The position numbers were made by a program, and so were the translations under genes. From Paraburkholderia phenazinium (GTDB lineage: Bacteria; Pseudomonadota; Gammaproteobacteria; Burkholderiales; Burkholderiaceae): DNA of 64,000 bases. Location: positions 3,472,001 through 3,536,000 of the forward strand of contig NZ_FSRM01000001.1 of the NCBI RefSeq assembly GCF_900141745.1, in the 5' to 3' direction. Shown here piece after piece: positions 48,778-50,441 of the stretch. The notes below the pieces were generated by a model. The model was given only the letters and a program-made list of their open reading frames with translations, made no database searches and was not told the origin of the DNA. How positions within the stretch are numbered: the stretch's first letter is position 1; each line of letters begins with the position of its first letter.

Positions 48778-48808
48778 GCGCTCCTCCTTCGCTGTACACG
48801 CTGTACCT

Positions 48809-48860
48809 CGCGCCGCAAGCTGGACTCTCCGAGTCCCGGTTAGCGGCGCGATTCTTTTTT
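48809..48860 (+). terminator. Two-tier intrinsic terminator of the TonB operon
   Basis: Outer arms CGCGCCGC (48809-48816) and GCGGCGCG (48843-48850) are perfect; inside them GGACTC-TCC-GAGTCC forms a second stem. ATTCTTTTTT follows. This is a strong terminator for the plus-strand operon. Confidence 0.85.
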
Positions 48861-48898: not shown

Positions 48899-49033
48899 CT
48901 TAGATCAATCTTGGATCATTCTTAGATCAATTTATGGGTCTTGAATCATTCTTAGATCAATCTTGGATCATTCTTGGTTCATTTTCCGTCCGTTTTGAGC
49001 TAAGATTGATTCAAGAATCAATCTTGAATCAAT
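48899..49033. repeat. Array of nine 11-bp repeats (iteron-like), consensus CTT(A/G)(G/A)ATCA(A/T)T
   Basis: Direct copies start at 48899, 48910, 48921, 48940, 48951, 48962, 48973 and 49023; an inverted copy is at 49005-49015. Copies 1-3 and 4-7 are head to tail with no gap, with eight bases between the two blocks. The unit length is close to one DNA turn, so bound proteins would stand on one face. The array is AT-rich in GC-rich DNA and ends 22 bp before the ATG of the wHTH/Fic gene, overlapping where its promoter should be. It is most simply an operator array for that protein. Confidence 0.85.
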
Positions 49034-49055: not shown

Positions 49056-50441
49056 ATGGCGAAGCGCGGACTGTACGACACCGTTCTGAGGTTTCTGGCC
49101 AGGCAGCGCGATCTGGGACACCACGAGTTGTCCCGGTCGTACATCGCGGCGGCACTGGGTGAGCCGCCGGCGACGGTACTCCGCTACCTGAACCGGCTCA
49201 AAGCGGACGGAAAAGTAGTCCAGTCGGGAAGTACCTCGGCCTCCCGTTACAGCCTTGCCAGTTTCGAGGGTGCGGTGCAAGCACCCGCGCCTTCCTCCGT
49301 CACACGTCCCGGCTCAGTAATTCCAACGGGATCCCCCTCGTGGTCTCCGTCTTCAAGCGATCTCCTCGCTGCTCTCGAGGTGCCTCTCGGCGCCCGTCAG
49401 CCGGTAACTTATCAGCGCAAGTTCGTCGACGATTACGAACCCAATCAGACGTTCCTGCTGCCTGAGTCGCTCGCAAACGATCTCTATCGAGAAGGACGGA
49501 TGCAAGGACAACAGCCCGCCGGCACGTACGCGCGCAATGTCATCGAGCCACTGCTGATCGACCTGTCTTTTTCGTCGTCCCGGCTCGAAGGCAACCGCTA
49601 CACCCGGCTCGATACCGAGGTCCTGTTCCGGTCGGGGCACGCCAACCCGCAGGACAAGGACGCGATCATGCTGCTCAACCACAAGCGCGCGATCGAGTTC
49701 CTGATCGACGAGGTGCCGCTCTATGGGCTCACCGTGATGGTGATCCGGAACATCCATACCTTGTTGATGCAGGGCCTGCTGCACGACGAAGATTCGCTCG
49801 GGGCGATTCGCCAGAAGGTCGTCAACATCAGCAACACGGCGTATGTGCCGGCACATATGCCTTCGCTGCTCGAGGAGATGCTCGGCATCATCGTTGCGAA
49901 GGCACGTGATATCAAGAATCCCGTAGAGGCCGCTTTCTTCCTCTGGGTGAACCTCGCCTACCTCCAGCCGTTCGAGGACGGCAACAAGCGAACCAGCCGG
50001 CTCAGCGCAAATATCCCGCTTCTGATGTACAACTGCGCGCCGCTCAGTTTTCTCGACGTGACGGACGACGACTATAGTCGCGCGAGGATCGGCGTGTATG
50101 AGAAGCTGGACGTCAGCATCGCTGCGGATCTGTTCGCGTGGACCTACCGCCGCTCGATCGGGAAATATGCCGTGCAGATTCAGGCGGCGGGCCTGCCCGA
50201 TCTGTTTCGCGCGACGCATCGCGATGCCATCAACGAACTGGTGAGCCGCGTTGTGCGAGAAGGCCATCCGCTCGGGGCGGCCATCGCCGAATTTGACCTC
50301 CCTGCGCAGGATGCCGAGAAGCTCGCCGAGATCGTCAAAGGAGATATCGTCCGGCTCGGCGAGCATAACTTCGCCCGTTACCGCCTGACGCTACGCGAGT
50401 TGATGCGTTGGGTCGATGCAGGACGCCCTGTCACCGAGTAG
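49056..50441 (+). CDS. Winged-helix and Fic-domain protein with Gln in place of the catalytic His
   Basis: A 461-residue protein. Residues 1-70 look like a winged helix-turn-helix (HELSRSYIAAALGEPPATVL). A Fic domain follows at about residues 115-380. The inhibitory motif [S/T]xxxE[G/N] is present (Ser174-Glu178-Gly179 in SSSRLEGN), which marks a class II-like Fic. The active-site loop HxFx[D/E]GN[G/K]RxxR reads QPFEDGNKRTSR at 304-315, so the His needed for AMP transfer is Gln304; the rest is kept. It may bind nucleotide without transferring it. The product could be a repressor that binds the repeat array directly in front of it. ATG 49056 is used, with GCGAG upstream. Confidence 0.8.
   Translation: MAKRGLYDTVLRFLARQRDLGHHELSRSYIAAALGEPPATVLRYLNRLKADGKVVQSGSTSASRYSLASFEGAVQAPAPSSVTRPGSVIPTGSPSWSPSSSDLLAALEVPLGARQPVTYQRKFVDDYEPNQTFLLPESLANDLYREGRMQGQQPAGTYARNVIEPLLIDLSFSSSRLEGNRYTRLDTEVLFRSGHANPQDKDAIMLLNHKRAIEFLIDEVPLYGLTVMVIRNIHTLLMQGLLHDEDSLGAIRQKVVNISNTAYVPAHMPSLLEEMLGIIVAKARDIKNPVEAAFFLWVNLAYLQPFEDGNKRTSRLSANIPLLMYNCAPLSFLDVTDDDYSRARIGVYEKLDVSIAADLFAWTYRRSIGKYAVQIQAAGLPDLFRATHRDAINELVSRVVREGHPLGAAIAEFDLPAQDAEKLAEIVKGDIVRLGEHNFARYRLTLRELMRWVDAGRPVTE

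Follow-up and report, generated by a model that had tools for sequence, protein, structure and literature searches.

The array of 11-bp words that precedes the wHTH-Fic gene in the window (the whole 64,000-nucleotide stretch of Paraburkholderia phenazinium DNA that was analysed) is very probably the operator of that gene, at which the encoded protein, a Fic protein with an N-terminal winged helix (wHTH), would bind cooperatively and repress its own expression, with array and recognition helix forming one specificity cassette. The first-pass annotation had proposed the Fic protein as the factor that binds the array and regulates its own gene, and comparison of sequences across the family lends support to this proposal through the recurrence of arrays in front of homologous genes, a link between word and recognition helix, the helical phasing of the copies and a joint change of array and wHTH.

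The array itself had been described as eight direct copies and one inverted copy, mostly head to tail with a period of 11 bp. A word search for CTTRRATCAWT with at most one mismatch returned the same count within positions 48899-49033, with starts on the plus strand at 48899, 48910, 48921, 48940, 48951, 48962, 48973 (one mismatch) and 49023, and five of the six start-to-start steps in the upstream block measure 11 bp and one 19 bp (11, 11, 19, 11, 11 and 11), which confirms the observation; a second inverted copy with two mismatches came in addition (Table 1). Across the full window the word has 12 matches, nine of them in the array, against 2.62 expected and a maximum of 8 over 100 shuffles, and the best 8-mer in 210 bp around the gene start occurs in 9 copies versus 3.5 in shuffles, none of 100 shuffles equalling 9. 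A genome-wide count, for which a two-word pattern with at most three mismatches was used in place of single words, matched nothing but the array in the 8.3 Mb genome (seven overlapping matches; backwards control, 0), so that, if the protein reads the array, no second array of the same word is available to it there.

Table 1 Features of the array and of the wHTH-Fic gene in the window.
Feature	Position	Strand	Basis
Inverted repeat followed by T run, possible terminator of the upstream operon (TonB according to the first-pass annotation)	48808..48858	+	inferred
Three 11-bp words head to tail, CTTAGATCAAT CTTGGATCATT CTTAGATCAAT	48899..48931	+	word search
Four 11-bp words head to tail, the last with one mismatch; starts 19 bp past the start of the preceding word	48940..48983	+	
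Weaker inverted copy CTTAGCTCAAA, two mismatches	48994..49004	-	
TAAGAT, possible -10 element, overlapping the inverted copies	49001..49006	+	alignment read by eye; putative
Inverted copy CTTGAATCAAT	49005..49015	-	word search
Direct copy CTTGAATCAAT; ATG 22 bases further on	49023..49033	+	word search
wHTH-Fic gene, 461 aa	49056..50441	+	ATG at 49056 supported by homologue alignment
Code for N-terminal winged helix (model residues 2-67)	49059..49256	+	model; sub-threshold HTH_IclR
Code for recognition helix (residues 38-50; Thr40, Leu42, Arg43, Tyr44)	49167..49205	+	model, alignment
Code for class II inhibitory motif SSRLEGN	49575..49595	+	
Code for Fic motif QPFEDGNKRTSR; Gln304 replaces the catalytic His	49965..50000	+	

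A terminator ahead of the array, as annotated earlier, is plausible from the inverted repeat at 48808-48851 and the T run after it, although the terminator scan made no call at this place; a second inverted repeat is nested within the first. At its thresholds the scan for promoters and terminators returned nothing, including no consensus promoter for the wHTH-Fic gene. The hexamer TAAGAT, a candidate -10 element, is present in five of seven aligned sequences (the window and six relatives), and sequence conservation in this alignment is high over the segment that contains the inverted copies.

Direct repeats spaced by about 11 or 21 bp resemble iterons, and a homologue of the protein is found on 36 plasmid records (matches at E ≤ 1e-20, of which 19 cover at least 80% of the protein). 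That the array represents plasmid-type iterons or a replication origin from a mobile element nevertheless deserves almost no credence and was rejected: it lies on a 4.48 Mb contig beside a TPR-protein gene and an AcrB-type gene, no replication gene or initiator was noticed among the open reading frames of 44.0-54.5 kb (three of them profiled with Pfam), and such arrays accompany the Fic gene across many different genomes. The plasmid relatives come from Polaromonas, Cupriavidus, Comamonas, Rhizobium and others, and phage records gave two weak partial matches only.

Pfam places the Fic domain (PF02661) at residues 226-320 with 47.8 bits versus a cut-off of 24, and at the N-terminus it yields sub-threshold HTH matches only, HTH_IclR among them; NCBIfam profiles likewise gave only matches below their cut-offs. 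In the structure model (mean pLDDT 78.5, with five models spanning 53.8-78.5 and Fic-motif residues 305-307 below 50), the N-terminus consists of helices at residues 2-19, 27-34 and 38-50 and strands at 54-57 and 64-67, and by this model residues 2-67 are a winged helix with residues 38-50 as its recognition helix. The description of a Fic protein with its own N-terminal winged helix is upheld in this respect; it was silent on the missing catalytic His. Among solved structures, the model comes closest in fold to C. elegans Fic-1 and FICD/HYPE, followed by 7xux (rank 16) and SO_4266 (rank 17), and in the alignment FICD reads HPFIDGNGRTSR where the window protein has QPFEDGNKRTSR.

The same replacement runs through the family. 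Among 178 homologous loci, 174 of which were aligned and four left out, Gln stands in place of the catalytic His in all 174 aligned proteins and in 177 of 178 overall, the exception being L151 with Leu; the catalytic motif HxFx[DE]GN[GK]R with its His is accordingly absent from all 178. Invariant in all 174 aligned sequences are S174, L177, E178, G179, N180, H209, F306, K311, R312 and R315, while N310 is retained in 173 and P305 in 159. The class II inhibitory motif [ST]xxxE[GN] is kept in 174 of 174 aligned homologues, and the usual inhibitory motif was not found in L151, one of the four unaligned proteins. From the Gln in 177 of 178 proteins together with the invariant neighbouring residues, we conclude that the active site is altered yet under strong constraint, and the conservation of the Gln, of the inhibitory Glu and of the Arg residues suggests that nucleotides are bound, with transfer absent or altered. 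A C. difficile Fic protein without the catalytic His is reportedly active. One locus (L018, genome G027) carries a Fic remnant in which residues 1-41 and 378-461 are fused in one open frame; its array is shortened, and an AcrB-type gene adjoins.

The family is widespread. A Fic match of some kind, other Fic genes counted too, occurs in 25 of 98 relatives, and a scan of one genome per species yielded at least 571 confirmed relatives, 80 of which were kept. In the protein database, 4565 proteins among 7999 scored match at E ≤ 1e-10, a set that is not restricted to Gln or wHTH members; in the one-genome-per-species scan, record titles name Proteobacteria (delta-proteobacterial ones included), Bacteroidota genera, Verrucomicrobia and Chlamydiae-related bacteria.

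Arrays before homologous wHTH-Fic genes, for which the first-pass annotation had proposed to look, are on the whole present. For 97 loci (17 from relatives and the 80 from the scan, close relatives such as L009-L014 among them), the best 8-mer was determined in about 200 bp upstream of starts picked by script near the expected position, and it reached a mean of 5.62 copies against 3.14 in shuffles. Significant arrays were obtained for 59 of the 97 at p ≤ 0.01 and for 65 at p ≤ 0.05, whereas upstream regions of other open reading frames at the same loci gave 9 and 15 of 203, respectively, and the control subset with at least 100 bp of non-coding DNA gave 8 of 137 at p ≤ 0.01. Removal of near-identical proteins left 54 of 91 at p ≤ 0.01 and 60 of 91 at p ≤ 0.05. 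Other Fic genes in the same genome set, ten in number with the most upstream ATG taken as start and a clear HPF motif in eight, showed no array at p ≤ 0.05 (0/10). Even p ≤ 0.05 was missed by 32 of the 97 homologue upstream regions. At L038 and L039, whose proteins are 73% and 69% identical to that of the window, the copies are degenerate and the array is not significant; no clear array is visible upstream of L072, L005 has two CTTATCA words only, and L046 and L055 have little.

A search with the consensus itself, also suggested earlier, fared differently in its two parts, as arrays recur upstream of homologues but the exact 11-bp word is confined to close relatives. Exact CTTRRATCAWT had no match in 197 of 213 loci, and the matches obtained cover, apart from the locus in the window and its repeats, five homologous loci, same-strain pairs being counted once or more. 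Because the word changes from clade to clade, a search for the exact 11-bp word would miss the wider family.

Spacing was analysed for 93 of 156 loci that have strong motifs by a score cut-off, with alignments taken from the motif program and a median of seven sites. Among 341 neighbouring copies on the same strand, 132 are spaced at 10-12 bp and 140 at 19-22 bp, with 15 at 13-18 bp, and neighbours on opposite strands show a peak at 16 bp. Relative to the start codon, the first site lies 149 bp upstream (median), and the gap between the end of the last site and the codon has a median of 7 bp; in a quarter of the loci the last site ends at the codon or past it. This spacing fits units arranged on one face of the helix and extending across promoter and start. 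In L006, L042, L074 and L107 the last word abuts or overlaps the start codon, and with a word in this position binding could affect the start of translation too.

These positions also bear on whether the protein, bound to the array, activates its own gene instead of repressing it. Many words lie far upstream, as the median of the first site illustrates, and regulators such as PhoP, in the published descriptions of its binding, use direct repeats too; PhoP also activates. Copies that reach the start codon would, however, be out of place for an activator, and CccR, the nearest studied protein by plan, is described as a repressor (PMC9755527), so that we consider activation improbable. Negative self-control by cooperative binding is the most economical reading in view of the indirect evidence and the CccR precedent.

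Motifs were obtained for 156 of 157 non-redundant loci with a program that takes the best word per locus and was wrong or vague in some of them (L005, L039, L120 and L205). Where residue 42 is Arg, words of the ATC(T/Y)GCTCA type occur in 15 of 16 loci, the exception being L072, and where it is Lys, GCTC-type words occur in 14 of 18, the remainder being two GGGCC words, one GGTGCA and one unclear case. Of the 18 loci with Asn42, nine carry a clean CTTATC or CTTGTC, six have a degenerate form and three have neither; with Gly42, five of six have ATCTn(C/G)TC-type words, and L042 has a clean ATCTCCTCA. In the window's own clade, defined by Leu42-Arg-Tyr, the motif program reported a clean CTTRRATCA-like word in four of seven loci, and exact CTTRRATCAWT is present twice in L039 and four times in L120 although the program chose another word there. 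The 87 loci with Gln42 display TGGCGCAA, TGTCGCGA and many variants, with mostly TTGCGCA in the case of Gln-Tyr helices. Thr40 is found in 135 of 156 loci and Ala40 in four, of which L056 and L061 have words ending in TCG and GCA rather than TCA, and L202 and L203 have quite other words. The link between word and helix is looser in the Gly and Asn classes and in that of the window. A further class of words is seen in L210, L211 and L213, where helices with RRWL after Val or Leu go with the GGCC words AATGGCCAG, TACGGCCAA and ATACGGCC.

Word similarity correlates with HTH similarity when Fic identity is held (partial rank correlation 0.20; maximum of 300 permutations, 0.05) and with Fic identity when the HTH is held (0.32), the latter indicating that common descent explains part of the link; these permutation and partial tests remove kinship incompletely. 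When HTH columns were tested on pairs with Fic identity below 0.6, residue 39 ranked first and residue 42 second. Once Fic identity had been residualised out, the HTH (67 columns) contributed seven of the 11 highest-ranking columns out of 409, with Fic columns 172 and 199 ranking above every HTH column. Independent sister pairs (46 to 78) gave, for five helix residues selected after the earlier column results and the word sorting had been seen, partial correlations of 0.18-0.44 with p values of 0.02-0.09 depending on the motif cut-off; for the whole helix p ranged from 0.03 to 0.12, and the top single columns were mixed, many of them outside the HTH. Taken together, these comparisons indicate that common descent accounts for part of the word-helix link, though probably not for all of it.

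A joint change of array and wHTH is visible between two Massilia genomes, M. rubra (L053) and M. mucilaginosa (L061). Their DNA is 87-94% identical upstream and 93-97% identical over the Fic part, whereas a segment of about 400 bp, which includes the array and most of the wHTH coding sequence, is 45-64% identical, after which identity climbs through 82%. At the protein level 330 of 345 Fic residues are identical versus 36 of 69 in the HTH, and as half of the wHTH differs, single residues cannot be blamed. The upstream cores comprise seven of the GAGCC type and one of the GCACC type in M. rubra, and one and seven, respectively, in M. mucilaginosa. Exchange by recombination would be the natural reading of this pattern, with fast joint divergence in place of exchange as a conceivable alternative. 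In a second pair, L154 and L159 (Fic 95%, HTH 39%), TGTCGC words face GGCGC words at different sites. In each of nine genomes that contain two family members, the words at one gene differ from those at the other, in a comparison for which the L205 word was read by eye and L038, with an identical protein, stood in for L118; the paired members belong mostly to different subfamilies, so the difference in words is partly old.

Two further explanations can be weighed against this covariation. Control in trans is common among genes, and the array might on that general ground be the operator of another cellular regulator with the Fic gene merely as target, for which we found no specific support. We rejected this explanation as highly improbable, given that differences in the word between clades follow the helix of the protein that the adjoining gene encodes, that array and wHTH changed jointly between the Massilia genomes, and that a search for partner or target genes found no neighbouring gene cluster common to more than 5 of 62 loci (some of the clusters resemble shadow ORFs). 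A functionless, neutral expansion of tandem repeats would account for the likeness of copies within an array and for their degeneration in L038 and L039. It would not account for copies in both orientations, for helical phasing or for the word-helix link, nor for the recurrence of arrays upstream of a single gene family when control genes rarely have them; we rejected it as hardly credible.

For the favoured reading, a cooperative autorepressor, we infer the following course. Copies of the wHTH-Fic protein would bind the words head to tail on one helix face, at spacings of 10-12 and 19-22 bp, and would also bind the inverted copies near the start cooperatively, and the array so occupied would hold down the gene's own promoter. 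Residues of the recognition helix at about 38-44 would read the word, a change in the wHTH would be followed by a change in the array, and the two would act as one specificity cassette. The Fic part, in which Gln replaces His while the remaining residues of the active site and the inhibitory motif hardly vary, would most likely act in sensing or assembly and determine when the array is released.

Were self-control to hold, a large group of Gln-type Fic domains would turn out to be self-controlled DNA-binding proteins, each gene holding both the reader (wHTH) and many copies of its word. With reader and words in one gene and at least 571 relatives, hundreds of natural helix-word pairs would stand side by side; paired helices and words of this kind make a winged-helix recognition code and the co-change of repressor and operator directly testable, and the Massilia pair amounts to a natural swap experiment. 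A more far-reaching reading, which we regard as doubtful, is that of a large new class of self-addressed regulators in which a pseudo-Fic nucleotide sensor assembles head to tail on a private array and array and wHTH form an exchangeable cassette for specificity. Diverging words would then keep family members in one cell from cross-repression, and a gene entering a naive cell would be derepressed, like phage immunity groups or plasmid incompatibility.

Both autoregulators of the Fic-HTH plan and operators made of direct repeats have precedents. In searches of the open PubMed Central literature we did not come across their combination with a Gln-type Fic domain, an N-terminal wHTH and private arrays specific to each clade, and we recognised no report of operator arrays before wHTH-Fic genes. 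The closest precedent is CccR of Yersinia pseudotuberculosis, a secreted Fic-HTH effector that, as its report describes, binds upstream of its own gene and represses it, the action proposed here for the window protein (PMC9755527). Both have a Fic domain and a DNA-binding domain in one chain as well as a class II inhibitory motif, and the best PDB sequence match of the window protein, 7xux, has CccR's length (380) and motif. According to the same report, however, the DNA-binding domain of CccR is C-terminal and not N-terminal, its motif HPFGNGNGR retains the catalytic His where the window protein has QPFEDGNKR, and its operator is a single inverted pair of 10 bp with a 26-bp gap instead of a direct-repeat array (PMC9755527). 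Fic domains in which Gln takes the place of His had been pointed out in 2015 by Khater and Mohanty, whose section on Fic/Doc clade D2 (45 sequences, Qx[FY]x[DE][GV]NKR) left their function open and held that such proteins need not be dead (PMC4454073). QPFEDGNKR, like the QPFxD(G/V)NKR of most wHTH-Fic members, fits the D2 consensus, a match by motif only; D2 proteins are there called "usually" single-domain, whereas the wHTH-Fic members have an N-terminal HTH (by the model and matching aligned N-termini), and that section mentions no regulatory DNA, whereas wHTH-Fic genes usually have an upstream array (PMC4454073).

The SoFic type (SO_4266, 3eqx) also joins a Fic domain and a winged helix in one chain, and the PADLOC SoFic model matches the window protein weakly (53.9 bits, residues 162-316 only). 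As described for these proteins, the winged helix of SO_4266 is C-terminal (PMC2686095) and EcSofic uses its catalytic His, judging by the H194A mutant (PMC12249575), in contrast to the N-terminal winged helix and the Gln of the window protein. CbFic2 of Coxiella burnetii is likewise an HTH-Fic protein and, in the account of its assays, its Fic activity responds to DNA binding (PMC10628234), which shows that DNA binding and the state of the Fic domain can be coupled; unlike the window protein it has a C-terminal HTH of the DeoR type and the motif HPFDDGNGR, and those assays used random DNA and named no specific site, where the window presents an array of words (PMC10628234). Outside the Fic proteins, PhoP, with 7-bp motifs and a 4-bp spacer that add up to an 11-bp period, and BldC are described in the accounts of their DNA binding as cooperative binders of direct repeats, as is proposed here for the wHTH-Fic protein. 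PhoP serves a regulon, and BldC is described as doing so too, whereas the wHTH-Fic protein would serve a private array in front of its own gene.
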